Positions 6,043 through 33,399 of a stretch of DNA of 64,000 nt are shown here, piece by piece (the stretch's first letter is position 1; the number at the start of each line of letters is the position of its first letter). The DNA is taken from positions 434,001 through 498,000 of the forward strand of contig PUDQ02000010.1 of the NCBI GenBank assembly GCA_002964805.2, in the 5' to 3' direction. Source of the DNA: Trametes villosa. Taxonomy: Eukaryota; Basidiomycota; Agaricomycetes; Polyporales; Polyporaceae. The notes beneath the pieces were generated by a model. That model was not told the origin of the DNA, did not search any database, and was given only the letters and a program-made list of their open reading frames with translations. Both the position numbers and the translations under genes were made by a program.

Positions 6043-6113
6043 TGCATTAAGGGGGAATCGAACCCCCGGCGGGTCGATGGCAACGACCCAGGTTACCACT
6101 ACCCCATTAATGC
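6043..6113 (-). tRNA. tRNA-Gly (anticodon GCC)
   Basis: Read on the minus strand this 71-nt sequence folds as a cloverleaf. The acceptor stem is GCATTAA paired with TTAATGC, with discriminator A. The D stem is GGGT/ACCT. The anticodon stem GGTCG/CGACC carries the loop TTGCCAT (anticodon GCC). The T arm is GGGGG-TTCGATT-CCCCC. The A and B box sequences of an internal Pol III promoter are therefore present. No intron and no encoded CCA, as expected for a nuclear tRNA gene. Confidence 0.93.
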
Positions 6114-17100: not shown

Positions 17101-18787
17101 GAGAGACGGCGAGGGCAGAGTCGACAGAGGGAGAGGGACCAGAGAGAGAGTAGAGGCCCTTGCCAACCCGAGTACCAGTGAAGAAGACCGCACCGCTGCG
17201 GTGGCGGAGAGACACGCCGGAGGCGTCGAAGCCCACAGTGTAACCATGAGGGCCGTCGCAGAGGGCGCGCACGGAGATCAGGCGCACAGACGCGGCGGGA
17301 ACGTGGAGGGCGTTCTCCAAGACAAGGTGTTTGCCGCGGCCGATAGACAGGCAAATCTTCCCGATGCCGGTGGCATAGATGACGCTGCCATTAACGCCGC
17401 GAATGCCGCAAGGAGCGATAGGAACGAGCTCCGAGAAGTCCGCGGCGACGGGGCTGAGGTGCGTCGACGCGCCGGAGTCGAACAGGAAAGGCTCGACGTC
17501 GGCAGAGCTAGCAGCGTAAGCGGAGTCCCAGTTCACAGAGAAAGAGAACGGGCCGGCGAGCGCGGCGTAGGCCTCATAGGCAGAGTCGCCGTGAGCGTCG
17601 AGAGCATCGAGCCAAGCCATGGGAAGATCGTCGGACGGCAGTGGGGACGGGACGTCGTCAGGGGCCTCAACGATAGAAGCAGCGGCGTGAGCGACGTCGG
17701 GAGCGGGGTCAGCGGCGGGCGCGACGGTCAAGAAGTAGGCTTTGCCAGACGCGTCAACGAACTTCTGCGTACCAGGCGCGGCGGACGCAGAAGCGCCGCC
17801 AGAACGGCCACCGCGCCGCTGTTCGCGACGGGCGGCGCGACGCGCGTCGACCTCGGCGCGTTTCCCGACCATGGGGCCGCCCGGCTGCCAGCAGTCCTCA
17901 GTGGAGTGAGTATCGCGTTTACAGTTGCTGCAGTGCTTGGGGACGCGCGCGCCGGGGCGGTGAGGCTGCGCGGAGAGCGCGGAGTCCGTGGTGAGCCCAG
18001 ACGAAGAGCTGTCGGCGCGAAGAGACTGCTCCAGTTCGATGCGCTTGATGATGTCCGCAACCTTATAGGGAGAGGCGGCGGTCGCGCGAGAGAAAGCGTC
18101 GGCGACGTGGCGCTGCAGGTCAGGGAAAGAGTCGCGCATCATATGCAGGAGCGCGACTTGCGCGAGAGAATCGGCGTCGAGATTGCCCATGTTGATGATC
18201 TGGCGACAGAGCGTAACGCATTGGTGCGCCTGGGGGACGAGCGGCTTCGCAGCGTCGAAACTGCCCTTGAGCAGGTCGCGCAACAGGAGGACCTGTGCGT
18301 GGGGGCCGCGGTTGAGATGCCGGTCGTACAAGAAAGACCAGAGCTTCGATGCGAGCCGAATGTCGCCGAGATGCTCGCGTTCGTCGTCCGAGCACTGGAG
18401 GCGCAAGAAGGCGAAGACGTGATGGTTGTTGCGAGTCCAGGCGGCGCTCGCGGCGCGCGTGACGGGATCGGGACGGACGTACGTGGGTTCCAGATACTCC
18501 TCCAGGTCGCCGCAGACGGACAGGATGTCGCGGACGCGGCGGGACCACGCGCGATAGTTGCCGACGGTGAGGTCGAGCAGATCGGCGGTGTCGAACTTGT
18601 GCAGGAGGTTGGGCGGGACCTGAGTCCGGACGATCGGGTCGGGGTCGACCGGGACAACGGTAACCGACGTCACCGGGGAAGCGGCAGCTGCCGATGCGGG
18701 GGTGGCGGTGACGGTGTCGAGGTCGGTGTCGATCGCGGAAGAGAGCGCGTCGGCCATGTCGGACGAGGTGACGGAAGAGGGGGACAT
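14111..18787 (-). CDS. Copia Gag-Pol polyprotein
   Basis: A single frame of about 1558 aa starts at ATG 18787 (MSPSSVTSSDMADALSSAID) and stops at 14111. The frame is open a little further upstream but without an ATG. In order it shows a Gag UBN2-like region and a CCHC zinc knuckle (CSNCKRDTHSTEDC). The protease motif is FLFDSGASTHLSP. A GAG-pre-integrase zinc module (HRRLGH..CDHCILGK) follows, then integrase D-D-E residues (DIIDDYS, TDNGE, NGKVERVHR). Reverse transcriptase motifs are VDVKTAFLYGSL and VHVDDFL, where HVDD replaces the usual YVDD. RNase H reads GYTDSNHACCLDTRRSVGGY, with DSTTEAEYIA further on and KHIDIKYHILRD near the end. All domains of a Pseudoviridae polyprotein are present without stop or frameshift, in the Ty1/copia order with integrase before RT. 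The likely role is self-propagation through cytoplasmic particles. Confidence 0.95.
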   Translation of the reverse strand: MSPSSVTSSDMADALSSAIDTDLDTVTATPASAAAASPVTSVTVVPVDPDPIVRTQVPPNLLHKFDTADLLDLTVGNYRAWSRRVRDILSVCGDLEEYLEPTYVRPDPVTRAASAAWTRNNHHVFAFLRLQCSDDEREHLGDIRLASKLWSFLYDRHLNRGPHAQVLLLRDLLKGSFDAAKPLVPQAHQCVTLCRQIINMGNLDADSLAQVALLHMMRDSFPDLQRHVADAFSRATAASPYKVADIIKRIELEQSLRADSSSSGLTTDSALSAQPHRPGARVPKHCSNCKRDTHSTEDCWQPGGPMVGKRAEVDARRAARREQRRGGRSGGASASAAPGTQKFVDASGKAYFLTVAPAADPAPDVAHAAASIVEAPDDVPSPLPSDDLPMAWLDALDAHGDSAYEAYAALAGPFSFSVNWDSAYAASSADVEPFLFDSGASTHLSPVAADFSELVPIAPCGIRGVNGSVIYATGIGKICLSIGRGKHLVLENALHVPAASVRLISVRALCDGPHGYTVGFDASGVSLRHRSGAVFFTGTRVGKGLYSLSGPSPSVDSALAVSRVPTLETWHRRLGHANYRSTYTVASQLRAAGTPVNLSLLPSKCDHCILGKQTRSSVPQVREGERSKERGGVFFIDATGDQCTRSASGNICSLDIIDDYSSRGWAIPVRSKGDCSGRLRVFLIARRAEGCPVRRIVTDNGECATKEISAVCDELGIEFVYTAPDTSAHNGKVERVHRTYLGKSRAMRFAANVPENRWDEFYVTACYLSNRTPSASLPRGMTPYEAWYGRPPSLTHLREIGARAFVHINTHNPKLRARSFECVLIGYGPNSKTYRLYHRPTHRVISSFHVSFIESHESPAAPPASPPSSPSVSPPSAAPSSSSPSSPPSPDLVADWPEDPAFTPSIPHTAPPVPASLLPPAPPAAPAPSLAPDAPPAPHVTVSTVADAAPAAAPDESSRPARARLPSERRAAADNLPWVSALERAVAECRVSAARVEADRVARRDARVEADLANYTELDLALAATLQLDSSYDGDPTSLRDALASPFAAQWRTALEEEFTSIKDLGVYNLIPRSDVPGHRRIMHGKPVFRLKRDEHGNPVRFKARWVCKGYEAVWGQDYYSTTSPTMRLESFRILIHLAAALDWDLHQVDVKTAFLYGSLPENEVCYMEQPAGFEVAGREDWVWELRKGLYGMPQGGRTWNKTMNDHLLSVGFERVPSEYCLYHRTTAAGTVITGVHVDDFLAIASSPATAADFKTDLRRVWTISDLGEARFCIGIAIERDRTRRLARISQTALIDRIVTQFGLADAHPVVTPLETDCNLSRREHSPRTDDEKLAARSWPYRALVGSLNYVAVGSRPDIAFAVQQLSQFLDCYGRAHWEAAKRVVRYLKGTRDLALHLGGDRPAFLLGYTDSNHACCLDTRRSVGGYCWSLGSGMVSWAARKQGSASDSTTEAEYIAASEASKEGIWLRSVLLAIGHGQTRPTPLAVDNNGAITLSGDPSHHNRTKHIDIKYHILRDYVTSDQLHVHWLPTDDNVADIFTKPLPGPKFAMFRGCLGLR

Positions 18788-18896
18788 GTTGAGAATGTGA
18801 AGAGGAAGAAAACGAACCGTCCGTCGCGAGAGGGGGGGAAAACGCGCAGAGCGCGAAGGAAACAGACGAAAGAGAGGGCAACGAGGGGGGTGGAAG

Positions 18897-19416
18897 TAAG
18901 GCTGCACATAGGTTCAGGTCACTGCATAGGTCGACCTGATCTGACCCGCAAATTGACCTGTAGGTTCAGGTCAACTAGGTTCAGGTACCTAGATGGCAGA
19001 TCAACTCCAGCTCTGGATCAAGGCTTGTGATCCAGTTAATTGACCTACATGATCTGTTTGTAGGATAAATTCACTCGCTTGACCTCAAATGAAGGTGCAA
19101 AATTATAATATCTGGCCTCAAAAGTTGTAAATCTCAAGGCATGTGGGTTGGTGGTATGCACCCAAGCTATATACAGACTCTATTGTACTGTCATAATATG
19201 TTTAGACATTGTATGAGACCTATTATGACCCAAATTTGGTACAGCATACACAAAACAGACCATGAATAGGTCAACCTGTAGGTACTAGGTACAGATCACT
19301 AGGTCACAGGTACCTAGAAGGCAGATCAACCCCAGTTCCAGATCATAGCTCATGATCTCCCATTACCTATAGGTACAGATCCAGATCACCTACGGATCGA
19401 CCTATGTGCAGCCTTA
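18897..19416. mobile_element. hAT-like MITE nested in the copia leader
   Basis: A 520-bp insertion has 17-bp terminal inverted repeats: TAAGGCTGCACATAGGT (18897-18913) and ACCTATGTGCAGCCTTA (19400-19416). An exact 8-bp duplication, GGTGGAAG, flanks it (18889-18896 and 19417-19424). An 8-bp duplication plus short TIRs is the signature of the hAT superfamily. There is no transposase ORF. The interior is AT-richer than its surroundings and carries many subterminal AGGTTCAGGTC / GACCTATAGGT-type repeats in both orientations, as is usual for transposase-binding ends. Confidence 0.88.
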
Positions 19417-19514
19417 GGTGGAAGCGTAGAAAGTGGAATGCACACGTCTGTGGGTGCGGGTTCACACGAGCGTCGCGTGCTAGGTTGGCGGATCCACGGG
19501 AGATCAGGCCAAAA

Positions 19515-19525
19515 GGCTCATAACC
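19515..19525 (-). promoter_or_regulatory. Copia primer-binding site (internal initiator tRNA-Met type)
   Basis: Directly after the 5' LTR the element strand reads GGTTATGAGCC. This is complementary to GGCTCATAACC, the anticodon-loop region of eukaryotic initiator tRNA-Met. Drosophila copia is known to prime from a half-molecule of this tRNA rather than from its 3' end. Confidence 0.75.
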
Positions 19526-19781
19526 TGTTAGAACCTAGACACGGGTCAGGGACGACTCAGCGGATGGATAACCGACTGTATAAGCTGTACCTAGACACGG
19601 GTCAGGGACGACTACCGTGATACATGAGTATGGGTACAGTACGGGATGTAGCGCGGGGGAACGTACCTCAGCGGATGGATAACCGACTGAGGTACGATGA
19701 AGCGGGGGAGGGGGATATATATACGGGCGCCTATCTCGCGTGCGTTGTCCCGAGTAGCACCCGGAACGCCATGCTCGAACA
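19526..19781 (-). repeat. Copia 5' LTR
   Basis: This 256-bp repeat runs TG..CA and is nearly identical to 13609-13864. Transcription would start in this copy and run leftward. A TATATATA stretch is present near 19716. Confidence 0.95.
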
Positions 19782-20004
19782 GAATAGGGTATATAGACGA
19801 CAGATGCAATTGATATCGAGCCTTGTCGAGAGGTATTTTACACAGGATGCTACAATACAGTAGCTACGCCGTCCAGCTGTTGGCAATACCAGTGCAGTTG
19901 GACGTGGCACCAAGCCGACCCCAAGTGCACTACATGGATATTTTGGACATCAGCGTACGTACCTTTTGCCCTTTAAGTCGGCATCGCAGTGCTCCATGGC
20001 CACA
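19782..20004. other. Short spacer between the copia and gypsy elements
   Basis: Starts with the right copy of the copia target duplication (GAATA). No gene or repeat recognised. Confidence 0.4.
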
Positions 20005-20118
20005 TGTAACGACCCTCCGTGGTCGTTACGGGTTATTGCAGGACATAGCGCTAGTTGCGCTATGTCGCGAGATGTACCTAGCGCTAGTTGCGCTAGGATA
20101 AGATACCGCGTAGATACA
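20005..20118 (+). repeat. Gypsy 5' LTR (short, possibly truncated)
   Basis: Matches 30450-30564 along its length. It is made of three successive hairpins: AACGAC/GTCGTT (20008-20027), GACATAGCG/CGCTATGTC (20042-20066) and CCTAGCG/CGCTAGG (around 20078-20098). The sequence after 20118 differs from that after the right copy. Confidence 0.7.
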
Positions 20119-20120
20119 GC

Positions 20121-22727
20121 AGCTGTGGTAGTTCTAATATAATATAAACCGTCAAATGGCCCAGAGCGCATTACATTAGGAACCGTAGGGGTTCCTAATG
20201 TAATAGGCTCCCCCGCCGAAAGGCCCGGTGAGCCTCCGGCACCTGCCTAATGGGGACGGTTTCCGCGGGTGGCTGCTTATCAGCCCCCGGGACTCTTATC
20301 TCTTGTTGATAACAACCTAATCTCATCTCTCCCGCACTCCCGGGCATGCAGATAGCGCGGGAACTCGGGCGCTTTGACTCTCGGCTGGGCACCACCCCGA
20401 TTAGGCAGGCTCCCCTCTCACCTCCCCCCTGGGTAGCTCTCTTCTTGGATATCTCGCTCGTCTCTGGCCCGATTCGCCTGGCAAGTGGCTCTACCGGTTC
20501 GCATTGAATAGGGCTACCATAATCAGCAAACGCGAAGGAAATGCGGTACGTACTGATGTTGTTATGCTAGGTGCAACTAGCCCATATAGGGCGACGCGAT
20601 CTGGGCGATAGCTTGCCCGTTTCGCGTCGCCCCGGGGCGCGCGTGGGCTCCCCAGAAAGCGGCTGAACAGGGCTTTCTGGAGAGCCCGGGCGCGCGCGAA
20701 TCGACCCAGTGGTTGGGGTTCTGTGCTCCGCCCATCTAGGGCAGGAGCACAGGCTCCCCTCCCTTGGTCAGATCTCGCTCAATTCCGCATGTATACAGTT
20801 GGAACTTTGAATTCCCCCCTAAAACACGATGTTGGTGTGCTTATAGGACTTTTCAGCCCAGATACTTTATGCAAAATGCTCCAGACAACCTCGTCCTGGG
20901 GCCCAGCTCCAGGACGACGGTTTTCTTGATATCTCGGGCACCTAGACGCGCGTCGCTACCGCACGCATATCCCCGGAAAGCTGCTGAACGCAGCTTTCCG
21001 TCGATATGCTTGCTGTGGCGATCCGACCGCCCGTTATTGCACAGTTCCCTCTTCACCTCGCCATCCCATCCTCCCCCTCTCCTTCCCTTCCTTCTTCCAG
21101 GATCCCCCTCCAACGCCCATATACCCGCTCCCAGGCCTTATGGACCTCTCCTGTACATATTGTAGCACTCTGTATGTCTAGATATCCCTCCAGATCGCCA
21201 CAATCTATATATTTATTCCTCTGCACTGATAGGTGATAGATACATTCCTCCCTGGCTAATGATAGAGGGCATGCACCAAGGAACAAATGGTTAGCTTACA
21301 TAGTACTATGCCACAGCTACTCAACGCATTTTAAATCATGTCAATCGGGTAGGAACTCGTAAAGATATGTATTTTACAGTTCCAAGGAGTTCCTAGCAGT
21401 GCTGTACTGCATGAGAGCCTGGGGCAGCCACCGAGACCGTCTTAAGACGGCCTGTGGCTGAGCCCTCCCCGAGGAGATCCTGTTGTAGCTCCATCACGGG
21501 AGCTCGTATTCCTTAGCTTTTTTGTACATACGTAGTCCTAGTAGATGCCTATCAGAATACGCGTTCAGCACGCTTATCGAGGACGAAACGGACTGGGGAT
21601 CGTGTTGCCTACCTGAAGACACCTGGACACACTGATAAGCCCAGGCAACGAGGCCCAAGGATTATGAAACTAATCGCATTCCACAGAACAATTGTGCTAC
21701 GTTATATGAGAAGTGGAAAGCTTGAACGAAGGGAAACGGACAGGAATTGGGTGATTGGTGGGAGAGGGAAAGGGAGGAGGGGGTGAGGAGAGGCATGTCG
21801 CACCAGCGAGGGTTCCAGCGGTCGTATCGCGACGAAAAGCATACCGACGGAAAGCTGCGTTCAGCAGCTTTCCGGGGGTATGTGTTACGTCGCGGAGCGC
21901 GCCCGCGTCCCAGAGATATCGAGCAAACCGTCGTCCAGGGGACAGGCCCCAAGACGAGGCTATCTGGCGCTTTCTGGATGCCTTCCTCGGGCTGGTAAGT
22001 CGGATGAGCGAGTGCCCATCGTGTTTTGAGAGCCTGTACACAGTTTCAGCTGGATCTATGGCGAAATGAGCGATCTGCAGCCCAGGAGGTGATTCTCTGC
22101 TCCTGCCCTGGATGGGCGGAGCGCAGAATCACAACCGCCGGGCGGATCCGAGCGCATGTGGGCTCGCCAGAAAGCTCTGGTAGGCCGCTTTCTGGGAAGC
22201 CCAGACGCGCCCCGAGGCAACGCGAAACGGGCGAGATATCGCCCGGATCGCGTCGCCTGATTGGGCCTACTTGTACACTGTATAGCGGCATTAGTACGCA
22301 CCGTATGAATTCGCGCTATTGAGGCTTATTGAAGCCCTTTGTAATGTGAACGAATAGAGCCACTTGCGAGGCAAATCGGCCGCCAAACGAGCGAGATACA
22401 GAGGGAGAGAGCTGCCCAAGGGAGGAGGGAAGAGGAGAACCTGCCTAATCGGGGTGGTTCTCAGCCGAGAGCTGAGGCGCCAGGATTCCCACGCCTGGTG
22501 GATGGCCGAGAGCCCGGGAGAGATGAGATTAGCATGCTATCAACAAGAGATAAGAAAGCTGGGGCTGATAAGCAGCCACCCGCCGAAACCGGCCGTATTT
22601 GGCAGGTGCCCGGGGGCTACTAGCCCGGGGAGCGGCCGGAAAATGATACAATAGGAACCCTACGGACTTTAATGTAATGCGCTCTGGGCCAATTGACGGT
22701 CAATGATATAATATAACTACCACAGCT
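20121..22727. repeat. 2.6-kb foldback with roughly 1-kb imperfect inverted arms
   Basis: The left arm (about 20121-21180) and right arm (about 21690-22727) are reverse complements over their whole length with many substitutions. Shared blocks include AGCTGTGGTAG at the ends, GGCCCAGAGCGCATTACATT, GGTGGCTGCTTATCAGCCCC, ATCTCTTGTTGATA, and a GGAAAGCTGCTGAACGCAGC block near 20977 and 21850. The unpaired centre is about 500 bp. The arms also hold many small hairpins. It occupies the place where gag should lie. It could be a separate long-TIR transposon or a rearranged inverted duplication of the element's own leader; no transposase ORF and no target duplication were seen. Confidence 0.8.
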
Positions 22728-23617
22728 TGTGGAAATCCGCTACAGTACAGCGGATGTTCGCTCAACGTGTCATCGACGACACGTCGGACGACGGCAACGA
22801 GCCGTCTACACAACAAGACGTTGCCGATGACAATGCGGCAACTCATCCCGAGTATCAAGAGCCTGAACCCGAGGCTCTTGCGGATAGCCCAGACGATAAC
22901 GGAGAATATCCGTTGTCAGACTATGGTCTGGAAGGATCTCAGTATGATCCTGACGAGGATCATTACACATCTCCTGGAGAGGGAGATGCAGATGAATACT
23001 TCATCGCGATGCGTATTGCACCGCTAGAAGAGGCCGAAACTGAGCCTCTTCGGTTACGCACCATGGCGGTTGCACCCACGCGAGGGTACAAGCAGGCCTG
23101 GTTATACGACAACAAGATACGTCGTATAGACGATCCCGCGGCGCAACCTGTGCGCACGCTCCAGGCCCAGCGCACACTATGCGCTGAGATTACAATCAAT
23201 AAGGTCACAGCTCTGGCCTTATTCGACTCGGGCTGCACGACCGATTCGATTACGCCAGAGTTGGCGTATTTGAGTCGCGCAGATCGTATCGATCTGGCAC
23301 AGCCTGTAGGGCTGCAATTGGGAACCAAGGGCAGCAAGACGCACATCAATTATGGTGCGCAAGCAGAGCTCAAGGTGGGCTCTGTGAATACTACGCAATA
23401 TTTTGACGTAGTAGACATCGATAAGTACGATGTCGTGTTGGGAACTACCTTCTGCAGGAAGCATGGAGTAATCCTAGACTTCCGTGCAGGTACGGTAGTA
23501 ATCAACGGCAAAAGTTTGCCGTTGTTCGATCCTGAGGTTTCGACGACTGCGAAACCCGAACCCAAGAAATGGGTTCCTCGATTCCAATTCGAAGGTACTG
23601 CTAAACCTAAGCAGTAG
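22727..23617 (+). CDS. Gypsy Gag remnant plus aspartic protease
   Basis: The frame opens at the foldback edge without an ATG; the first ATG is at 22754 (MFAQRVIDDTSDDGNEPS). An acidic linker leads to a retropepsin-like domain with the active-site motif LALFDSGCTTDSITPELA and the flap/second-loop segment YDVVLGTTFCRKHGVILDF. In fungal gypsy elements such a linker follows a capsid region and a CCHC zinc knuckle, and neither is present here. Either the N-terminal part of Gag was removed by the foldback or the Gag role is served elsewhere. The ORF ends 24 bp before the pol frame. Confidence 0.75.
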   Translation: MWKSATVQRMFAQRVIDDTSDDGNEPSTQQDVADDNAATHPEYQEPEPEALADSPDDNGEYPLSDYGLEGSQYDPDEDHYTSPGEGDADEYFIAMRIAPLEEAETEPLRLRTMAVAPTRGYKQAWLYDNKIRRIDDPAAQPVRTLQAQRTLCAEITINKVTALALFDSGCTTDSITPELAYLSRADRIDLAQPVGLQLGTKGSKTHINYGAQAELKVGSVNTTQYFDVVDIDKYDVVLGTTFCRKHGVILDFRAGTVVINGKSLPLFDPEVSTTAKPEPKKWVPRFQFEGTAKPKQ

Positions 23618-23641
23618 GACAACGTAGCGAGTTCCACAAGA

Positions 23642-26600
23642 GTGGAACCTCCCCACTCTCGTTACGACAAGTCCGGAGGGTCGTCAGGAGGGGGAGGGAA
23701 CGGTGTAGAAACCGTTAAGATTCCTGAACGACACCAAGGGCGAGCCAAAGATAGCTCGCCGCCGAACATTGGCGAAAAATTCATTCCGACGATGCATTCG
23801 TCGCGAGGTCCTAGAAGGGACAAGTATGGGTACGAGGACCCATACGGCATCAACGAGCTCTTGGACAAGATAGCCAAGGAGCAGTGGGAAGACGAACAGA
23901 TCCGACGAACCCACGCTGGGTTCGTCATAGACGAGGAAGAGGAGGAGCTGAAAGCTCTTCGTGACCGCTGGTATGCGGCCACCGAGGACATTATGCGTCC
24001 TGCGCCGGAGCATCTCCCGCCGTTCCGGGAGATCAATCACCACATTCCGCTCATCGATGAAGCGAAGAAATATCGCTATCATCTCCCACGTTGCGCGGAC
24101 GTGGTGAAGCCAGAGCTCATAGCGAAAATCAATCGCTATGTGAAGGCAGGCTGGTGGCGACCGGTAACGGTCACGCAAGCAGCGCCTCTGCTGTGCGTTG
24201 CCAAGAAGAATGGCAAGCTGCGCACCGTACTCGATGCGCGACAACGAAACCAGAACACGGTGCACGACCTGACACCGTTTCCGGATCAAGACCAGATCCG
24301 GATGGACGTTGCTCGAGCGAAGTATCGCTCGAAGATTGATCTGTCCGACGCCTACGAACAGATCCGCATAGTTGCGGAGGACGTGTGGAAGACCGCGTTC
24401 GCGACGCCTTACGGGACGTTCGTGAGCGAGGTCATGCAACAGGGCGACACCAACGCCCCGTCCACATTCCAACGTCTAATGACAGCCATATTCCGTGACT
24501 GTATCGGAAGGTTCGTCCATGTCTATTTGGACGACATTTTCGTATTTTCGGACTCCAAGGAGGAGCACGAAGAACACTTAAGGATAGTGTTCGAAAAGCT
24601 TCGAGAGGCGAAGCTTTTCCTAAGCCGCAGCAAGTGCGACTTATACTCCAAAGACTTGGATTGTCTCGGTCACCGAATAGATGACAAGGGACTACACGCC
24701 GATACGGACAAGATGAGCCGTATCAGGAACTGGCGGACACCTCGCTCGTATAACGAGGTGCAGCGGTTCCTCGGGCTAGTGAACTATCTGGCACATTTTA
24801 TGCCAGATGTAACGGCGTACACATCGCCGTTATCGGACATGGTCCATAACGACCGTCCGTTCGTATGGCGCGCACTGCACGACAAGTGCTTTGAGTCTAT
24901 CAAAGCACTCGCGTGTAAGGTGCCCATACTGAAGCCGATAGATCCGGCTTCCACAGATCCCATTTGGTTGATCTGTGATGCGTCCGTGTATGGACTCGGA
25001 GCGTTATACGGGCAAGGACCCGACTGGCAAACTTGCAGGCCAGCCGGGTTCCTGTCGAAGAAATTTACGTCCGCACAACGGGCGTATCGAACCTACGAGC
25101 AAGAAGCTCTAGCCATCATGGAAGGCTTGTTCAAGTGGGAGGACAAGCTCATAGGACGAAAGCTCAATATAGTCACTGACCATAGAGCTCTCGAGTTCCT
25201 TGAGGGACTCGAGCGTCCTAACCACCGTCAGATACGGTGGTACGAATTCTTGTCGAGGTTCGACAAGACGATTACCTATATTCCAGGTAAACTGAACAAA
25301 GTAGCGGACTGCTTATCCCGCTACTTCGAACACGACGACATAGAGGAACTAGCCGAAGATTTCGACTATGTTAACGCCGATTTGCGGCTAGATCCTGAAG
25401 GGGATGATCTCCCCTTCTCCCGACTCATCGAGCTACGCGCAGCTCGAGTGTTGCGTCGATCTGCGCGGAAACTCGCGCAGCTAGAGACAGATAACGCGCA
25501 CGCTACACGCGTGCAAGAACCAATAGAGGAACGAGTCGTAGAGTCGGCTCGTTACGCTGCACACGCACCTATCTCGGTGACTGCAGCAACCCCGGACAGC
25601 GACAATGTGACGCTGTCGGACTCGCTATCTGCGGGTCCCTCTTTGCGTGTCTGGGTAGAAGGAGACGACGGCTTCCTGAAAGCCGTCAAGTCAGGTTATG
25701 TTAATGACCCGACGTTCCAGAAAATACTGGAACGGCCTACTCAGCATCGCGCATTCGTAATGCGCGAGGGTGTGATATACACCAAGAACCGTGAAGGCGA
25801 CGAGGTATTGTGTATACCTCGTGGTCTGTATCGGAAACGGGCCCTTCAGGAGCTCGTGTTAGACCAAGCGCATAGCGCGCTTGGACATCTTGGACCTCAG
25901 CGCACGTCAGAGTACGTGCGCAAGTGGTTTTGGTGGCCCGCGTTACGCAAAGATGTAGACAAGTTCTGCATTTCGTGCGGCGTGTGCCACACCACGAAAA
26001 TAAGTACACAGCCCCCTATAGGGCTGTTACACTCGCTACCGATACCTACGGTGCCATGGACGTCTATGTCCATGGATTTCTTCGGTCCGTTTCCGCCCTC
26101 GCACGGATACGACTACATATGGATTGTAGTCTGTCGGTTGACCTCGATGGTACACCTCATACCCATCAAGACAACCGACACAGCGTCAGACCTGGCGCTG
26201 GTCTACTTCAGGGAAGTAGTCCGTCTACACGGGCTACCGGACTCCATAGTCTCTGATAGAGACTCGAAGTTCACTTCCAAGTTCTGGAAGGAGCTGCATC
26301 GCCTTATGGGGGCGAAGCTGCTTATGTCCACGTCGTTCCATCCACAGACGGATGGATTATCTGAGCGTAGTATACGCTCAGTGTCGCAGATACTCCGTGC
26401 ACTGGTAGCTCCTGACCAGTTGGACTGGTATGAGAAGCTACCGATAGCGGAGTTCGCTATCAACTCTGCGGTAAGTTCTACCACAGGGTTCGCTCCGTTC
26501 GAGTTGAACTACGGGTATCTCCCGCGTTCTATGAACGGAATCGGAACGGACACTCCGTTTCGAGGAGTGCGAGAGTTCGCACTCAGAGCCAAGGCGAACC

Positions 26601-27163
26601 TGGAGATGGCGCATGATGCCATCATCGAGGCGCGAGTGCGCCAGACACACTATGCGAATAAGCATAGGCAAGCCGAACCCGACTTTGAGGTCGGGGACAA
26701 GGTATACCTATCGACAAAGAATTTGTCGATACCTAAGGGCCGGGCACGAAAGCTCGTGCCTAAATACATCGGACCGTATGCTATAATTGAGAGCATACCC
26801 AGTACGTCAAACTACGTACTGGAGTTACCAGAAGAACTCCGGAACCGAAGGATACACCCTCGGTTCCACGCGTCGCTATTACGATGCTATGAGCCAAACG
26901 ACGATGCGGTATTCCCGCATCGTGAGGCGAAGTCGTATTACGACTTCGGCAATGAAGACTCCACCGAATGGTTGGTGGAAGAGATTATCGGCCACGAGTG
27001 GAATGGCAATAAGTGCCAGTTCCACGTGCGGTGGACGATGGGGGACCATACATGGGAGCCCTACGAGCACTGTAAGGAGCTCGTAGCATTAGACGAGTAT
27101 TGTCGTCTAATGGGCGTGTCATCTTGGCGCGCGTTGCCCAAGAAAACATCCGCCAAGACTTAG
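23642..27163 (+). CDS. Gypsy Pol polyprotein (RT, RNase H, integrase, chromodomain)
   Basis: An uninterrupted frame of up to 1173 aa; the true start may be a little downstream or reached by frameshift from the protease ORF. The reverse transcriptase shows LLCVAKKNGKLRTVLDARQR, SKIDLSDAYEQIRI and the catalytic YLDDIFVFS. RNase H shows WLICDASVYGLGALYG, YEQEALAIMEG and TDHRALEFLEG. The integrase has the H-H-C-C zinc module (HSALGHLG..CISCGVCHTTK) and D-D-E residues (MSMDFFGPF, IVSDRDSKFTSKFW, GLSERSIRSV). The C terminus is a chromodomain (VEEIIGHEWNGNKCQFHVRW followed by HTWEPYEHC), which places it with the chromoviruses and could direct insertion to marked chromatin. Codon choice is peculiar: neighbouring codons repeatedly form perfect hairpins. 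Confidence 0.95.
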   Translation: MEPPHSRYDKSGGSSGGGGNGVETVKIPERHQGRAKDSSPPNIGEKFIPTMHSSRGPRRDKYGYEDPYGINELLDKIAKEQWEDEQIRRTHAGFVIDEEEEELKALRDRWYAATEDIMRPAPEHLPPFREINHHIPLIDEAKKYRYHLPRCADVVKPELIAKINRYVKAGWWRPVTVTQAAPLLCVAKKNGKLRTVLDARQRNQNTVHDLTPFPDQDQIRMDVARAKYRSKIDLSDAYEQIRIVAEDVWKTAFATPYGTFVSEVMQQGDTNAPSTFQRLMTAIFRDCIGRFVHVYLDDIFVFSDSKEEHEEHLRIVFEKLREAKLFLSRSKCDLYSKDLDCLGHRIDDKGLHADTDKMSRIRNWRTPRSYNEVQRFLGLVNYLAHFMPDVTAYTSPLSDMVHNDRPFVWRALHDKCFESIKALACKVPILKPIDPASTDPIWLICDASVYGLGALYGQGPDWQTCRPAGFLSKKFTSAQRAYRTYEQEALAIMEGLFKWEDKLIGRKLNIVTDHRALEFLEGLERPNHRQIRWYEFLSRFDKTITYIPGKLNKVADCLSRYFEHDDIEELAEDFDYVNADLRLDPEGDDLPFSRLIELRAARVLRRSARKLAQLETDNAHATRVQEPIEERVVESARYAAHAPISVTAATPDSDNVTLSDSLSAGPSLRVWVEGDDGFLKAVKSGYVNDPTFQKILERPTQHRAFVMREGVIYTKNREGDEVLCIPRGLYRKRALQELVLDQAHSALGHLGPQRTSEYVRKWFWWPALRKDVDKFCISCGVCHTTKISTQPPIGLLHSLPIPTVPWTSMSMDFFGPFPPSHGYDYIWIVVCRLTSMVHLIPIKTTDTASDLALVYFREVVRLHGLPDSIVSDRDSKFTSKFWKELHRLMGAKLLMSTSFHPQTDGLSERSIRSVSQILRALVAPDQLDWYEKLPIAEFAINSAVSSTTGFAPFELNYGYLPRSMNGIGTDTPFRGVREFALRAKANLEMAHDAIIEARVRQTHYANKHRQAEPDFEVGDKVYLSTKNLSIPKGRARKLVPKYIGPYAIIESIPSTSNYVLELPEELRNRRIHPRFHASLLRCYEPNDDAVFPHREAKSYYDFGNEDSTEWLVEEIIGHEWNGNKCQFHVRWTMGDHTWEPYEHCKELVALDEYCRLMGVSSWRALPKKTSAKT

Positions 27164-27411
27164 CGGATGTACGAAGCGCAACATGCGCTTCGTGGTCAAG
27201 ACTACCCGAGTGAGTAGTCGTGGTGAAGGACAGAGCACGCGCAGAGAGCGCGTGACCGTGAAGTAGTACGTCACGTGCAGGACTCGCGTGCGCGAGGCAG
27301 CCACCGACGCGTTCGGACTCCGCCGGCGCTTTAAGACGGCGACCTCGCGAGTGCAGGGTCATAACCGACCTCTGCCACCTCACCACCACCACCAACAACG
27401 ACGCCCGCGCC
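27164..27411 (+). other. Spacer between pol and third ORF
   Basis: This 250-bp gap continues the hairpin tiling, e.g. CGAAGCGCA/TGCGCTTCG at 27172-27192. No other feature is supported. Confidence 0.5.
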
Positions 27412-29979
27412 ATGAACGACGCCCCGCAAGACAACACGCAAGCCAGCAGCTCCGGGCAGCAAGCCTCGGAGCAACAGGGGTCGCAACCTGCGGCCCCTCA
27501 ACAACAAAACATCCCCTTCCCCCAACCTTCGCAGTTCCTGCTGCCGCAACAAGCGGCAGCTCCCGCATTCTCGTCCATGCCGGGGGTAACCCACCCCCAG
27601 CAGTTCCCGCATGCCTTCTCGCAGGGCATGCCCGCCTACGGGTTTCCGTACGGCGGCGGCTTCCAGTTCCCGCATCAAGCGGGTCCTGCATTCCAGAGCG
27701 CGCCCAGTTCGAGCGCGCCGATGCCACAGACTGGTGGCATCCCCCTCATGCCCTTCTCGAGCATGACCTGGGCGCCCGTAGCGGGCCAACACTTGTTGGT
27801 CGCGCACAGCGACAACTGCGCTGTGTGCGCGGACTTTGTCCGCCACTACAACTCGGCGGCGTCAGACTCGACGTTCCGGGACGCGCAGACGCGCGTCCAG
27901 TCAGAACTGCAGCAGCGGTTCTGGCGGCACTTCGAGGAGCACCAGAGGGTGGAGGAGGGGAGGAGCCGCGATCGGATCGCGGAGCTCGAGGCGAAGCTCC
28001 AGAAGATGAAGGAGCTCGTCGACGAGACGAAGTCGATCCGGGACAGATACCGGAGCGAGCGCGAGGCCGCTCGCCAGGAGCGCGACGAGTACGAGCGCGA
28101 GCGCGATGAGGTGCGCTCGCAGTTGGAGGCTGAGCTCAGTCGGGCTCGGCACAGGAGGGCGTCGCCTCCGCGCGACGAACGACGACGCGACCCGAGGGAA
28201 CTCAGCCCTCGGAGGAGGGATACTGCGAACGATAGGTCGTTCGCGTCGACATCAAGGAGCTCAGCGCCGTCCGCTGGGCCCAGCTTGATGCCGATCGTGT
28301 CGCTGCCCAGCGGGGCAGGACCATCGAGGACTGGAGCGTCGCAGATGACGACGCCAAATGTGGCAGGACCGTCGAACTCGACGGCGATGCCGACCTCGTC
28401 GACATCCGCGGACCGGGACCACCCTATGGTGGACTGGGAGAACGCGACGAGCGACGAGGACGACGACATCGACGAGAGGCGGATCGAGAGACTCGTCTCT
28501 CGAAACCGATATCGTCGTGCTCGTCGCGACACTGGCCCGGCACATGCTCCGGGTCAGGGCGCGCCGTTTGGCACGCAACCTCCGCCGCAACCAGCGACGG
28601 ATGTGGCGAGGGTCCCCGGGTGGCCGTACCACCTGTTGGCCCTCCCCACCGACTCGGACCCGCGTCTCGCGGGGCACTGGTACAACTACGTGCCGGTGTC
28701 CGTCGCGGACGCCAACAACATCATCATGGCTGCTCGCCGTGATACGGGTGAGGCGGCTCACCGCATCCGCGACCTAATTGGTCAAGTGAACTCCCGTTCG
28801 GAGTACACAGGAGTGGCTGGTCTCAACCAGCTACAGTCGTCGTGGCGTCGAGAGGCGCCGCCGCCGCTGATCGCGGCGGTTCAACGAGCCGACTCCCGGG
28901 GAAACACTCCCCCTGGACTCGAGCACGCGTCGACGGCGCACTTGCCGCCGCCGTCGTCGACCCTCTCGCGCAAGCGGACGCCCGCTGAGTGGCGGGAGGT
29001 CAAACTGAAGCTGCGTGCACAGCGCACGGCGCCGGCCCCAAACCAGCCGAGCTTCAGTGACCCGCCTGCTGTGTGGCAGGCTTGGTATGGCGTCGATGAG
29101 CGCCGTATCCCTCAGTGGATGGAGCGGGAGCCAAATGGGCTTCCTACGACGCGCAGCGTGGAGTACCACGTTGCCGTTCGAGCGATGCTGCCGCGCGGCA
29201 CGCCACTGGGACCGCGAGGGCATTGGGTGACCCTCGCCCACTGGCTGTTCTCAGTGCCGGGGCTCTACCGTTACGTGGTAGAGCAGGGGCAGTACCCCGT
29301 GGGTACTAGCTACCACCCGGGCCCCTACCCCAACGACGTCGCAAGCACGACGTTGTTCCATCTAGCGCGCTGGTTTGCGGCGCGCGGTCTTACCCCGACG
29401 GCTGCGGAGCGGTTCCTGCCGCTCGCGAGACTGTGCCGCAACGAGCGGAACGGGCGCGACCTTCGGTCGCTGCTGCCTCAAATGGATGGCGGCCCGAATT
29501 CGACTCTCGACGTCGGAGTCGTGCCCAGTTCGCGGGACTTGGGACCAGTCGCCACAGGCGGCCCACTGCCGCCCCCCAACGCGCCCGCACCTGCGCCCGC
29601 GCCCGCACCCGCACCAGCACCCGCACCCGCACCAGCACCCCCGCAGGCGCCCGAGGCGCCTGCCGTTACCACCGACGACGTCGACATGACCGACGCGTCC
29701 ACTACCACCGCCGCGACCGCCATAACTGCGGTCGCCGAACCGTCGAGCATTGCCTCGACCCCGTCACACGTAGTGGCGGGTACCCATCCCGATGACGGAG
29801 TCCCACCTCCGCCGTACTCCCCCGCTCGCGCGATGGAGGACGTGCAGGAGGCACCCGTCGCCGGGCCTTCCCAACCGCCTGCCGCTGCTAGCGACAGGCA
29901 CGACGAGAGCGAGAACGCGACGGGTGAGCAGGGATCCTCCCCTCTCACCCCGTCATCGCCACACGACGACACCGCGTAG
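27412..29979 (+). CDS. Third gypsy ORF: large Gln/Pro-rich protein with coiled coil, unknown function
   Basis: An 855-aa ORF lies between pol and the 3' LTR in the same orientation. The N-terminal 150 residues are rich in Q, P, F and G. A long charged coiled coil follows (about residues 165-245, e.g. RIAELEAKLQKMKELVDETK), then an RS/RE-rich stretch. A compact region (about 540-690) reads PLGPRGHWVTLAHWLFSVPG and ASTTLFHLARWFAARGLTP. The C terminus is a low-complexity PAPAP repeat and an acidic tail. No zinc knuckle, membrane segment or signal peptide is evident, so an envelope role is unlikely. It could replace the missing capsid or act as an accessory factor; both are inference. It shares the hairpin tiling of pol, which ties it to the element. 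Confidence 0.7.
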   Translation: MNDAPQDNTQASSSGQQASEQQGSQPAAPQQQNIPFPQPSQFLLPQQAAAPAFSSMPGVTHPQQFPHAFSQGMPAYGFPYGGGFQFPHQAGPAFQSAPSSSAPMPQTGGIPLMPFSSMTWAPVAGQHLLVAHSDNCAVCADFVRHYNSAASDSTFRDAQTRVQSELQQRFWRHFEEHQRVEEGRSRDRIAELEAKLQKMKELVDETKSIRDRYRSEREAARQERDEYERERDEVRSQLEAELSRARHRRASPPRDERRRDPRELSPRRRDTANDRSFASTSRSSAPSAGPSLMPIVSLPSGAGPSRTGASQMTTPNVAGPSNSTAMPTSSTSADRDHPMVDWENATSDEDDDIDERRIERLVSRNRYRRARRDTGPAHAPGQGAPFGTQPPPQPATDVARVPGWPYHLLALPTDSDPRLAGHWYNYVPVSVADANNIIMAARRDTGEAAHRIRDLIGQVNSRSEYTGVAGLNQLQSSWRREAPPPLIAAVQRADSRGNTPPGLEHASTAHLPPPSSTLSRKRTPAEWREVKLKLRAQRTAPAPNQPSFSDPPAVWQAWYGVDERRIPQWMEREPNGLPTTRSVEYHVAVRAMLPRGTPLGPRGHWVTLAHWLFSVPGLYRYVVEQGQYPVGTSYHPGPYPNDVASTTLFHLARWFAARGLTPTAAERFLPLARLCRNERNGRDLRSLLPQMDGGPNSTLDVGVVPSSRDLGPVATGGPLPPPNAPAPAPAPAPAPAPAPAPAPPQAPEAPAVTTDDVDMTDASTTTAATAITAVAEPSSIASTPSHVVAGTHPDDGVPPPPYSPARAMEDVQEAPVAGPSQPPAAASDRHDESENATGEQGSSPLTPSSPHDDTA

Positions 29980-30449
29980 GTGTCTAATCACAACCTTCGA
30001 GTGCATCCGTCATGCACTCGTCGTATACCACGACGGAATGACTGCAAATATTTGCAGTCCCTGTAGGAGACGATATCATCGTCTCCTCGGGCATAACGCA
30101 ACCGATCTGCGTCAAAAATTGATCGGTTCGTCCGCCATAGCTGCGGTACTAATGTACATAGCCGCACCCCACGGTGCGCGCATCAATAACCCAAAAACAA
30201 AAACACTACCATATCATGGTAGTGTAGTGGTATGACTGCTACTATCTGCAGTCGTGTATATATCCCACTGCACTGCTGTGACCACCCTGTGAGCCTAATT
30301 GGCTCACTGACTCATTGTATATATGAGTTGCGCACGCACTATGCGCAACTCTTTGTATCATATAGTGCTATGACTGCGAATATCAGCAGTCGTTCCTTTT
30401 ATTATAATATTCTATTGTAGACCCGTACAACGGGTCTAGAGGGGGAGAG
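29980..30449 (+). other. Gypsy 3' untranslated region: chain of perfect hairpins and purine tract
   Basis: Successive near-perfect hairpins follow one another: the 20-bp palindrome GACTGCAAATATTTGCAGTC (30040-30059), AGGAGACGAT/ATCGTCTCCT (30065-30087), ACACTACCAT/ATGGTAGTGT (30203-30225), GTTGCGCA/TGCGCAAC (30327-30349) and AGACCCGT/ACGGGTCT (30419-30437). A TGACTGC..GCAGTC unit recurs three times. The purine tract at 30438-30449 leads into the LTR. Confidence 0.8.
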
Positions 30450-30564
30450 TGTAACGACCCTCCGTGGTCGTTACGGGTTCTTGTAGGACATAGCGCTAGT
30501 TGCGCTATGTCGCGATCAGTACCTAGCGCTAGTTGCGCTAGGATAAGATACCGCGTAGATATCA
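30450..30564 (+). repeat. Gypsy 3' LTR
   Basis: Begins TGTAACGACC directly after the purine tract and matches 20005-20118 with about five differences. The end at CA 30563-30564 is chosen by comparison with the left copy and may not be the true terminus. Confidence 0.7.
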
Positions 30565-33399
30565 TGTAGTAGATAGACGCGTACGACGCGCGGGTATTCG
30601 GAGCCCGCGCGTCTGGTGAGGGCAGCCTTCTACAACTGCCCCACCATCTCCCGAGTACGCCGAGCCCTAATAGAGCCCGGACCAGAGTACTTGGAGACTG
30701 CGGGCATCAGAAGTGCCCGACACCCGTGAGTTTTACAGTATCTACACCGTAGGTAGTAACAAAACACACACTCGAGAGTGCGTGAGAGTCGGGCACATGA
30801 TGGTGGACTCGGAGGCGGTGGCTTTCCGAGTTGTTGCTCATCACTCGCTTTGTTCGAGTTCATGTCGCTACGCCTCCAATCATCCGCAGTCGGCTGCAAT
30901 AATTGAGCACGGTGATGCGGCCGGCCCGAGTCCTTCATACTGACTGGGTATGGGGGCGGACTCGGGGTGGAGGAGCAGGCAGGGAAGCAGGTACACTGCT
31001 GCCCGCCCTGCTCTTCCTCCCCGGGCTCACTACACAAGGTTTTCACGGGTCGAGATTCTGAGAACATCACAAGTGAGTGAGGGACGGCGGGATCGTACGG
31101 GGCATGCAAACCAATGCGGGCGGGATTGGACTCGAGCGAGCCGTACTTCTTGAAGCACAGCACGATCACACGGCCGAGGCTTAGCATGCTGATGTTCTAA
31201 CAGACGCTCGCATCGTCTCACAGTTCGCTTAGGGGAAGAGCACATCACAATGAGTGATTTTATGTTATTGATGCATCTGGGATCAAGTTCGTGAATTGCG
31301 TCCAACTTCCAAGTGCGGCGACGGCGGCGACGGGAGACACACCCTACCGCGCAGTGACCAAACAGGCTGCAGCTCCCGCCTGACCGCCCGCCAGCTCTAA
31401 GTGAAGTCGCCTACCTATCCCACCACCTCGCCGGAGTTATGCTTCTAGTACACCGGGCCGTGTACAACATGTAATTTGTAGTAGTAGCCTTGATCGGCAC
31501 GCCCGTAGGAGCCTGAAACTCACCGGAAAGTGCGGTTCTTGGCTATGAAAATTCCAGAATAGCTTGCGCAGACGTGCCGTCCAATGTGACATGATCCGGC
31601 AGGCCGCAGTAGTCGCGTGCGAAGCGGTCGCATCCAGAGTCCGCGGCAATGTCAGAAGCTGCCGCATTCGCCGAGCAGACGGAACACGCTCACCTGGTTT
31701 GTCTCTCCCTCGCTCATCCGGAACGTTGGCCCGTACGACTCCCTGCACCGTGCATCCGCCTAGGAGGGAAGGGCGAGGTGAGTACATCCCCGTTGCAGGC
31801 ATGGGCTTAGTCGAACTCACACCATCCTGCCGCATGCGCTCCCGCAATGTGCTTCCGCCTGCGCATTCTCGACACATACCGCCGACGAACCATTGACCGG
31901 AGGTCGACACGCAGCGGACGGGAGGTTGCTAGAGGTTGCACTGGACACGGTGACGTGCGTGCGTTTTCTTCGCGCTCGAGACGACAACAGAGCACATTAT
32001 GGAAGGTAGCTCTCCGTTGCCACGGTACCCCGTTCGTCGCGCCAAGACAGGGCGCGGAGATCGCCGAGGACGTCGACAGTTGGGCGGGACGTCGGGAGCC
32101 TGAGGGCATAAGTACTCGGGCACGGGTTGCTCGGACATGCGGCTAGGGGCGGCGAGCGGGAAGAGGGTGTTCCCAAGAAGAGAACCAGGTAAGCGTCTCC
32201 GAAGGTGTGGTGTACCGACTCACCTGATCCAGGTACGGTGCCGCGCGGTGAGAGCGCGCGATACGTGACACGTTCTCATCGTGCGTGCTGCCGCGCCGGC
32301 GTCGCATTGCACATACTCGTTAGCATCCGCCGAGCGGGAACGGCTTACGAGCGGGCCTGAATGTGGTGTTTCCCTGCCCCAAACGAGTCATGAGCTCATG
32401 TCCAGGACAAAGCGGCGCGAGGTTCAGACTCAAGTGCGGACGGCACGAGTCACCTCCCGATCGCTGCTGCTCATATCGGAGCGGGGGCCTCGAGGATCGC
32501 GCTGGTCTACACAGGTTAGGTGAGCGGTGTCCTCGGAACCTCGCACGTTCTAAGCTCACCTATGTCTTAGCCGAGGCGCACCGTCCTCCGTACCAGTGTG
32601 CGAGATCCGAGAATGACACGGCGCAGGAAGCACGACTCGGATGCGAAGCGCACGGCGGTAGGTACACGGGCGGCACAGCGAGCACTAGACGCGTAAGTGG
32701 TAGTCGACTCGGCTCGACCGAGCGGTACCGGACACTCTACCAACAGGATCCCGCGTACGAGAGCGGTAGTTAGGCCTGCAGAGCTGCGGGGAGTATCTTC
32801 AGCGTCGGCGAACTTGGAGTCGGTAGCCGGGAGCGCATCCCACCTGACGGCTAGGCGCGGTTCCAAAGCGCGCGGGTTGCTTCGTGCATCGCAGAGTCCG
32901 GGCCAGTGGGCGACGGGGAGCCTGCGGCCGCGCGGGTCGGGCACTATGACCCGGGGCTGGAAGCTGCCCGCAGATCAGCGAGTTGGGCACGGACGGAGGA
33001 GAGCAGGCGATGTCGGGAGTTGTTGATCCATATGTACGCGAGTCGGGCGATCCGAGACGGGCGTGTCCGGCGGGCACGGCGGCTGCCCACTGTTCCGCAG
33101 GTGCATCAGATTCGCTGACCGTTTAGCACAATTTCTACGCGAGCGCAATGAGATGGGCGGCGGTGCATGGAGCAGCCAGCGAGGAGGCGTCGACGTCGGA
33201 TCCAGGAGAGAGCAAGCGGGTAGACGCCCGTAGAGAGCCGCAGAGCTGCGTCGCGCGCAGGCGTCTTTGCGTCCGCCTCTCACCAGCTGGTGGCCGTCTT
33301 GGCATGCAGGCTGGCGTCCCACCGATGCACCCGCCTTGGCATTAGGCCCACATTATTCTTGCAGAGTCCACGAATCCATCGAGGAGATCTCGCTCCCCG
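30565..33399. other. 2.8-kb stretch without a recognisable gene
   Basis: Only overlapping short ORFs without family signatures occur on both strands (e.g. 30630-31187 minus, 31807-32109 minus). No terminal repeats, LTRs or retroelement motifs were recognised. It directly precedes the truncated PEX1, so it occupies the position where the 5' half of that gene would be expected. Confidence 0.45.

Follow-up and report, generated by a model that had tools for sequence, protein, structure and literature searches.

A hairpin-tiled Ty3/gypsy element in Trametes villosa whose genome is likely kept locally folded by selection

Ordered structure in viral, retrotransposon and mitochondrial sequences

Genome-wide ordered RNA structure (GORS) is known from RNA viruses, and its cause is debated there. 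The GORS threshold has been placed at an MFED of 3% (PMC3950689); the literature quotes a maximum of 23.4% for vertebrate RNA viruses and local peaks above 50% for SARS-CoV-2 (PMC7642675, PMC3950689). The RNAs of the LTR retrotransposons Ty1 and Ty3 contain stable, highly structured regions, up to 30% according to PMC11381356. Coding palindromes are described in the mitochondria of Nematomorpha, for which arm conversion has been proposed (PMC6649704). Among the matches listed in a literature search (titles and abstract openings, most subscription journals lying outside it), none describes a retrotransposon with GORS or with a tiling of hairpins.

Layout of the element

The window, i.e. the whole 64,000-nucleotide stretch analysed, originates from Trametes villosa (assembly GCA_002964805.2, contig PUDQ02000010.1, forward strand 434,001-498,000), and all coordinates below are window positions. 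The element exhibits the PR-RT-RNaseH-INT order and the paired LTRs of a Ty3/gypsy LTR retrotransposon, with an aspartyl protease Pfam match below its cut-off and a truncated 5' LTR. Ty3/gypsy chromoviruses belong to the Metaviridae. Its parts are as follows.

20005..20116, + strand: truncated 5' LTR, beginning TGTAAC, 96% identical to 30450-30561
20117..22731, no strand: nested foldback (inverted-repeat) element of ~2.6 kb that breaks the 5' end, outside the dense tiling
22732..30737, + strand: hairpin-tiled gypsy element proper, from the gag C-terminus to the 3' LTR end (stem counts, MFED)
22732..23617, + strand: C-terminal gag and aspartic protease, the end of the gag-PR ORF
23642..27163, + strand: pol, with RT, RNase H, integrase, SH3_Tf2-1 and a weak chromodomain (Pfam)
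27412..29979, + strand: ORF3, 855 amino acids, GC-rich, function unassigned (ORF reading)
30441..30449, + strand: polypurine tract GGGGGAGAG, read directly, adjoining the 3' LTR
30450..30737, + strand: 3' LTR, TGTAAC...TTTACA, ~288 nt (repeat comparison)

The foldback insertion, whose inverted arms are 74-87% complementary and which has further matches in the genome, splits the 112-nt 5' LTR piece from the remaining gypsy sequence. This piece harbors three perfect hairpins of 8-10 bp, and LTR starts matching it occur elsewhere in the genome. The first-pass annotation had described a dense tiling unbroken from LTR to LTR and an element ending at 30564; the insertion is in fact far sparser in hairpins, and the 3' LTR continues to ~30737. 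Both the leader and the N-terminal portion of gag are missing from the window copy. In copy L022, gag and protease form one open frame of 669 codons, and gag possesses a CCHC zinc knuckle scoring above the cut-off. The C-terminal chromodomain of pol is a weak match (PF00385, E=5.8e-4, 20.2 bits for a cut-off of 25.1). In the relatives, 10 of the 12 loci read carry an ORF of 708-889 amino acids after pol, three of these ORFs reaching the locus end. To the eye, the ORF3 protein has a coiled-coil or disordered look.

Hairpins and folding energy

Between 22732 and 30741, perfect stems with a loop of 3-10 nt number 154, 99 and 57 for lengths of at least 6, 7 and 8 bp, respectively. The longest reaches 11 bp, and noncoding sequence has none above 10 bp. 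The stems are strand-symmetric and consist almost entirely of Watson-Crick pairs, and their loops cluster at 3-7 nt. Stems of at least 6 bp start every 37 nt in the median and every 52 nt in the mean, so the earlier description of a hairpin every 20-40 nt is a little too dense. The 12 hairpins quoted earlier are all present, perfect and correctly placed; the list below includes examples, together with two hairpins compared with the family-B copy L009.

23504..23523, + strand: AACGGCAAA/TTTGCCGTT, gag-PR end, coordinates confirmed
23904..23926, + strand: GACGAACCCA/TGGGTTCGTC, pol, coordinates confirmed
24313..24332, + strand: TCGAGCGA/TCGCTCGA, pol nt 672, also perfect in L009
26203..26219, + strand: CTACTTC/GAAGTAG, pol nt 2562, CTACCTC/GAGGTAG in L009, both arms changed
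26928..26948, + strand: CGAAGTCGTA/TACGACTTCG, pol, coordinates confirmed
30203..30225, + strand: ACACTACCAT/ATGGTAGTGT, 3' untranslated part, coordinates confirmed

Stem counts were compared with controls for perfect stems of at least 7 bp and loops of 3-10 nt, using the mean of 20 dinucleotide shuffles and the mean of 30 codon shuffles, which leave the protein and its codon usage unchanged. The gag C-terminus and protease hold 16 stems for 0.2 in dinucleotide shuffles, and 15 for 0.9 in codon shuffles. The corresponding values are 48 stems for 1.5 and 2.3 in pol, and 19 for 2.1 and 3.4 in ORF3. The spacer (2 stems), the 3' untranslated part (7) and the 3' LTR (4) each yield 0.1 after dinucleotide shuffling. 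The tiling thus crosses all these parts, as had been proposed, and the gypsy excess holds against both kinds of shuffle and against the copia ORF, which is confirmed to lack the pattern (0 stems, for 2.6 and 2.9 in dinucleotide and codon shuffles). The window flanks are at the level of their dinucleotide shuffles (6 stems for 6.3 in 1-13000, 17 for 16.3 in 31000-64000). The foldback insertion holds 5 stems in 2615 nt for 1.1 shuffled, much sparser yet above chance. Only 9 of the 48 pol stems pair third with third codon positions, a register that is avoided.

Folding tells the same story: the MFED of pol is 38.9% relative to codon shuffles and, in 350-nt fragments, 37.1% relative to dinucleotide shuffles. 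Over 22732-30449 it is 32.2% for the plus strand and 27.1% for the minus strand (43 fragments), and all 43 plus-strand fragments are positive, from 8 to 70%. The copia ORF (-0.9%) and a flank (-2.6%) serve as controls within the window; the foldback insertion gives 13.7% (plus) and 18.2% (minus). With dinucleotide shuffles, the plus strand exceeds the minus strand in ORF3, in the whole element and in 6 of 9 clade pols; with codon shuffles, the plus strand leads in only 5 of the 9 pols and ties in one. Predicted accessibility over 8 and 16 nt drops by only about one quarter to one third, which provides a weak basis for siRNA shielding.

Relatives and turnover of the stems

The comparison of relatives covers one genome, and none was confirmed in viral_contigs. 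The nine structured-clade pol members form a single clade (support 100/100), and the MFED of the relatives ranges overall from about 5 to 31%. By the 350-nt dinucleotide-shuffle measure, family B pols reach 29.7 and 24.4%; L017 follows at 21.7%, L019 at 15.1%, L015, L016 and L020 at 7.4-8.6% and L021 at 4.8%. Eleven further gypsy families of this genome lie between -5.5 and 8.6%, two of which (L036, 8.6%, and L038, 7.1%) overlap with the weak end of the clade. The hairpin excess is centred on one pol clade of the genome and is graded within it.

Individual hairpins are mostly not shared. Three of the 48 pol stems are fully kept in L009, one in L019 and none in six others (none in L012). Pairing at family-A stem sites is in slight excess in L009 (0.486, for 0.444 in shuffles; 3/200). 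Positional conservation of hairpins between families and compensatory change within stems, both raised by the first-pass annotation, were rejected as a description of the data: pairing positions have largely turned over, the A-B pairing excess being slight, and compensated pairs are not in excess. Perfect stems of at least 6 bp exhibit no compensated double change; in pol there are 51 one-sided changes, and the 3' part has 26. Of the 1007 pol pairs that fold with confidence in family A, three changed from one Watson-Crick pair to another and 102 on one side only; the figures are 3 and 85 in family B (L009/L012). Such replacements represent 3 of the 5 pairs changed on both sides in each family. 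Three stems of at least 7 bp occur in a minority of copies, and each was gained through one base.

Variation at paired and unpaired sites

Variants of pol were analysed in 15 of 26 family-A copies. Third-position variants shared by at least two copies are found at 20 of 657 paired sites (3.0%) and at 44 of 266 unpaired sites (16.5%; OR 0.16, p=7e-12), a depletion that persists when stratified by base (OR 0.12, p=2e-15) and at fourfold sites (11/373 and 9/76, p=0.0025). Singletons are distributed more evenly (37/657 and 21/266; OR 0.70, p=0.23; stratified 0.66, p=0.14), still with a bias in perfect stems of at least 7 bp (OR 0.52, p=0.044). Shared first- and second-position variants are in excess in stems of at least 6 bp (8/698 and 6/1648, OR 3.2, p=0.04). 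In noncoding sequence, any variant is rarer at paired sites (7/356 and 20/220; OR 0.20, p=1.5e-4), as it is in the 3' LTR (30450-30741; 4/149 and 10/82; OR 0.20, p=0.007). No depletion is observed in gag C-terminal and protease stems (OR 1.57, p=0.44), and that of ORF3 is not significant (OR 0.63-0.69). The family B pair L009/L012 displays it (OR 0.44, p=4e-5); L009/L011 does not reach significance (OR 0.69, p=0.27), nor do the weakly structured L015/L016 (OR 0.76 and 0.87). The scarcity of shared changes at bases predicted to be paired suggests that natural selection likely keeps the RNA of the element folded.

The near-perfect stems of the three ORFs point the same way. Of their 36 single mismatches, 28 are unmendable by one synonymous change, for 4.4 expected in shuffles, and 8 are mendable, for 5.6 expected. 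The hairpins are realised mostly within protein constraint.

Which strand or molecule is selected was approached through wobble pairs. Shared variants at paired sites have no G-U preference (10 GU of 40 expected, 18 AC of 65), while all variants mildly favour GU (48 of 89, and 42 AC of 116, p=0.07). Eight pol copies gave about 16 GU vs 2 AC; with 15 copies the ratio is 27 vs 13 in stems of at least 6 bp (p=0.017), 18 vs 9 from 7 bp (p=0.12) and 8 vs 6 from 8 bp (p=0.79). The preference is not repeated in gag-PR (GU 4, AC 7) or the 3' part (GU 7, AC 10), and mismatches in near-perfect stems comprise 11 GT and 10 AC of 31. Selection on RNA only, as judged by wobble tolerance, was therefore set aside, the signal being strong in 8 copies, weaker in 15 and absent among shared variants. 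The minus strand, too, comes close to the plus strand in its degree of structure, so these data do not prove a function of the sense RNA. Of the earlier suggestion of selection for a structured RNA, selection stands, through depleted shared variants and unmendable mismatches; the sense RNA is only a candidate target.

Origin of the hairpins

We propose, with a probability of roughly two in three, that selection on spreading copies keeps the genome of this gypsy element locally folded through coding and noncoding sequence, in a GORS-like manner. Copies whose transcript folds on itself would leave more offspring copies, and this would favour synonymous or noncoding changes that create additional stable local pairs. 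The benefit may be a transcript shielded from host RNA-directed defence or nucleases, and compaction for packaging could be a second one. Single hairpins would be replaceable, total local pairing being the quantity maintained. Argonaute and RdRP gene matches are present in the genome. A more specific proposal, which we regard as rather unlikely, is that both strands evolved as self-complementary hairpin chains, sense and antisense each folding on itself before mutual annealing or RdRP copying and so denying RNAi its long dsRNA. Folding of this kind would account for the equal purging of G-U and A-C changes among shared variants and for the upper limit of 11 bp on stem length.

The mutational alternative raised by the first-pass annotation, in which the nascent strand folds back during reverse transcription and copies the opposite arm while protein selection removes harmful results, is consistent with the strand-symmetric, nearly pure Watson-Crick pairing, with loops of the size that fold-back would require and with the turnover of hairpins between families. 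It has the Nematomorpha proposal as a precedent, and the few Watson-Crick replacements and the somewhat higher amino-acid divergence of family B arms from L015 (62/129 vs 360/923, p=0.055) are in its favour. However, about 123 shared variants are expected at paired sites and 30 are seen; if arm copying had removed the missing ones, a large share of them would be predicted to surface as double changes, but only three accompany the 102 one-sided changes of family A and three the 85 of family B. Perfect stems without compensated pairs, one-base gains of all three minority stems, and only 2 of 47 close pairs of changes within stems of at least 7 bp, which contain 23% of sites, also argue against it. 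So do the arms of family A, whose amino-acid divergence from eight relatives is not raised (OR 0.85-1.14, p 0.32-1), and the 11 other gypsy families of the same genome, which lack the pattern or nearly so. Finally, imperfect stems are in excess at unmendable mismatches, whereas the Nematomorpha paper interprets the lack of an excess of this kind as pointing to conversion (PMC6649704). Arm copying is thus disfavoured and appears distinctly improbable.

Slightly less probable is selection on single-stranded or cruciform DNA, for instance on a cDNA intermediate whose hairpins help strand transfer, cDNA protection or integration. The equal purging of GU and AC among shared variants and the similar degree of structure in the two strands would fit; the structure, however, spans the whole element rather than known reverse-transcription sites, and the plus strand leads in 6 of 9 clade pols, though with codon shuffles this lead shrinks to 5. 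LTR elements are not known to have a function that requires ubiquitous cDNA hairpins. We give little credence to dispersed packaging signals bound by Gag or the ORF3 protein: the zinc knuckle of Gag and the large ORF after pol in most relatives are compatible with them, but inspection by eye of the 48 pol loops reveals no evident common motif, and an ORF in the ORF3 position (matched by position only) also occurs in the weakly structured L015, L016 and L021. Chance hairpins arising from base or dinucleotide composition or codon bias alone can practically be discarded, since both kinds of shuffled control preserve such features and fall far short. Selection for local folding is the reading retained below.

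Comparison with known systems

A retrotransposon that shows a stronger form of ordered structure, in many nearly identical copies and next to unstructured gypsy families of the same host, amounts to a natural experiment with a graded series. It makes RNA self-folding as a counter-defence testable, and illustrates how far nucleic-acid structure can bend codon choice with proteins conserved.

The element resembles Ty3/gypsy chromoviruses by its PR-RT-RH-INT order, SH3_Tf2-1, weak C-terminal chromodomain, short LTRs and polypurine tract, and departs from them by the additional large ORF3 after pol and by the hairpin tiling. Like Ty1 and Ty3, it is an LTR retrotransposon with a genomic RNA predicted to be structured, RT-coding part included (PMC11381356 for Ty1 and Ty3); unlike in these, compared by structured fraction and not by MFED, the excess local pairing spans the whole element. 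With the Nematomorpha palindromes it shares perfect inverted repeats in protein-conserving genes, many of them lineage-specific. The latter lie in mitochondrial DNA, with counted arms of 15-142 bp and no excess of imperfect repeats (PMC6649704), whereas here the arms measure 6-11 bp, imperfect stems are in excess at unmendable sites and shared variants carry a signature of selection.

The element also resembles GORS RNA viruses: both exhibit consecutive local stem-loops through coding regions, a raised MFED, pairings poorly kept between relatives and less diverse paired sites (PMC7642675, PMC3950689). In this element these traits correspond to an MFED of 32.2%, far above shuffles, to 99 stems of 7 bp or more over 8 kb, to pair positions poorly conserved between relatives, and to a lower diversity at paired sites in pol (OR 0.12) and noncoding sequence (0.20) that is not significant in ORF3 or in gag C-terminus and protease. 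The MFED of pol, ~37%, compares with a SARS-CoV-2 genome mean of ~15%, the shuffling algorithms being different (PMC7642675, PMC3950689). The element differs from these viruses in that the host sequence is an LTR retrotransposon and its stems are nearly pure Watson-Crick and strand-symmetric.

Anatomy of the element and density of its hairpins

The hairpins quoted in the first-pass annotation are exact in 12 of 12 cases, and the stretch 22732-30741 holds, counting loops of 3-10 nt, 154 perfect stems of 6 bp or longer, of which 99 reach 7 bp and 57 reach 8 bp, the longest being 11 bp. The features concerned are the following.

14111-18907, minus strand: copia polyprotein ORF, 1598 aa
20005: start of the 5' LTR, which breaks off at 20116, where the element of the next line is inserted
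20117-22731: foldback (inverted-repeat) element, 2.6 kb, with long diverged inverted arms
23642-27163: pol, with RT, RNase H, integrase, SH3_Tf2-1 and a sub-threshold chromodomain
27412-29979: ORF3, 855 aa, GC about 0.67, its middle charged and coiled-coil-like by eye
end at about 30737: 3' LTR, directly after the polypurine tract

As claimed, hairpins exceed dinucleotide shuffles in the gag C-terminal and protease part, pol, the spacer, ORF3, the 3' untranslated part and the 3' LTR, and exceed codon shuffles in the three ORFs (gag C-terminus-protease, pol, ORF3); in the window flanks they are near chance (dinucleotide shuffles). The copia ORF indeed lacks the pattern, its stems being below chance (4 versus 11.1 shuffled, at least 6 bp). 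The dense tiling does not run unbroken from LTR to LTR: the nested insert 20117-22731 is sparse, yet above its own shuffles (5 versus 1.1, stems of at least 7 bp). Mean folding z-scores per 1500-nt bin are -3.2 to -5.1 in 22501-31500 (plus strand), -2.8 and -1.4 in the bins at 19501 and 21001, and -1.2 to 0.9 outside 19501-31500, with a slight dip at 60001-61500, larger on the minus strand (-2.27). An ORF with an APH phosphotransferase domain lies at 51831-52892, minus strand.

One arm piece of the foldback element gives 51 matches elsewhere in the genome; as both arms match, the elements number fewer than 51. It also lies inside the loci of three other clade copies (L012, L021, L023). In copy L022, gag (with its CCHC knuckle) and protease share a single frame of 669 codons. 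Among named sequences, the best relatives of pol come from Trametes, which suggests a polypore as the host. ORF3 has no Pfam family near cut-off and, among the candidates scored in a protein search, only two homologues, one from Trametes coccinea; of the 12 loci of relatives that were read, 10 have an ORF of 708-889 aa 3' of pol. At 29580-29640, within ORF3, a CGCACC hexamer is tandemly repeated, and the protein there is an alanine-proline run. The sequence next to the two LTR ends shows no matching target duplication, which might be expected if the window copy was rearranged.

Graded folding among relatives

A search of the genome (46.7 Mb, 140 contigs) for pol relatives yielded 39 scored matches from 228 candidates: 26 of family A, which includes the window copy (97-100% identity), six of family B (75-77%) and seven at 57-60%. 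Nine clade members group together with support 100/100. The folding-energy excess over shuffled controls (MFED) was computed for pol against 12 codon shuffles and, separately, against dinucleotide shuffles in 350-nt fragments. With codon shuffles it reaches 38.9% in family A, 30.8 and 23.3 in B, 20.8 in L017 and 16.6 in L019, and falls to 10.1, 9.4, 6.2 and 5.6 in the weak members L015, L020, L021 and L016; copia gives -0.4, and the values of eleven gypsy families outside the clade run from -5.7 to 6.3. With dinucleotide shuffles, family A pol gives 37.1, the remaining eight clade members 4.8-29.7 and the 11 families beyond the clade -5.5 to 8.6, so that two of the latter, L036 (8.6) and L038 (7.1), overlap the clade's weak end. 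The mild rise of these two is on the plus strand, the minus strand being lower (3.8 and 4.7%).

Selection at paired sites versus arm copying

The comparison of variants covered 15 pol copies out of the 26 of family A. Third-position variants common to at least two copies occur at 20 of 657 predicted-paired and 44 of 266 unpaired sites (odds ratio, OR, stratified by base 0.12, p=2e-15). Singletons show no significant difference (OR 0.66-0.70), and many of them should be younger than the insertion. Perfect-stem counts mostly agree: third-position variants in at least three copies number 3/365 in stems of at least 6 bp versus 42/808 outside, and singletons give OR 0.64 (p=0.11) for at least 6 bp and 0.52 (p=0.044) for at least 7 bp, while shared first- and second-position variants go in the opposite direction (8/698 versus 6/1648, p=0.04). 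Noncoding and LTR variants are likewise scarcer at paired sites (OR 0.20 each); ORF3 and gag C-terminus-protease show no significant depletion. In family B it is present for L009/L012 (OR 0.44) and not significant for L009/L011 alone; a weakly structured pair shows none.

Hairpins could also be made by a mutational process that writes one arm from the other. Such copying predicts many double changes, but Watson-Crick to Watson-Crick doubles number 3 versus 102 one-sided changes in family A and 3 versus 85 in family B, and for one of the three A doubles (pol 1140/1221) both single-step intermediates are seen. For each stem of at least 7 bp found in a minority of copies (three stems, five copy cases) the difference is a single base, and of 36 losses of a stem 33 are likewise single-base changes. 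Amino-acid divergence is not raised in family-A arms against eight relatives; family-B arms show a borderline rise against one relative (p=0.055).

Selection for folding also accords with the mismatches. In near-perfect stems of family A, 28 of 36 cannot be mended by one synonymous change (expected 4.4); this excess points to a conflict of protein with pairing, as selection on both should leave. The eight mendable ones are near chance (expected 5.6), and six are G-U.

Strand and possible function

Among shared paired-site variants, G-U (10, 40.1 expected) is not favoured over A-C (18, 64.6 expected); among all such variants the preference is mild (48, 88.6 expected, versus 42, 115.6 expected; p=0.07). 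G-U pairs make up 6.1% of native folds versus 11.5% of shuffled ones, and both strands fold well. Hence either selection requires pairs of full Watson-Crick strength, or both strands are under selection, an ambiguity on which rests the reading that sense and antisense transcripts would each self-fold.

Argonaute and RdRP both have matches in the genome, and PMC3950689 mentions some evidence, not fully consistent, that structured genomes escape siRNA. Modelled accessibility falls only modestly; if RNAi is the pressure, we therefore infer that folding would hinder duplex formation or RdRP copying rather than hide siRNA target sites.

Comparison with known systems

Compensated pairs, looked for in the stems of related copies, are not in excess between families A and B. 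Hairpin positions are largely replaced, with 3 of 48 A stems still perfect in L009 of family B (0.12 expected), and pairing at A stems is slightly above shuffles. The genome-wide ordered RNA structure (GORS) of coronaviruses is alike in that its pairing positions have turned over as between the two gypsy families, and the same combination, pair turnover with no compensatory excess, is described there in PMC7642675.
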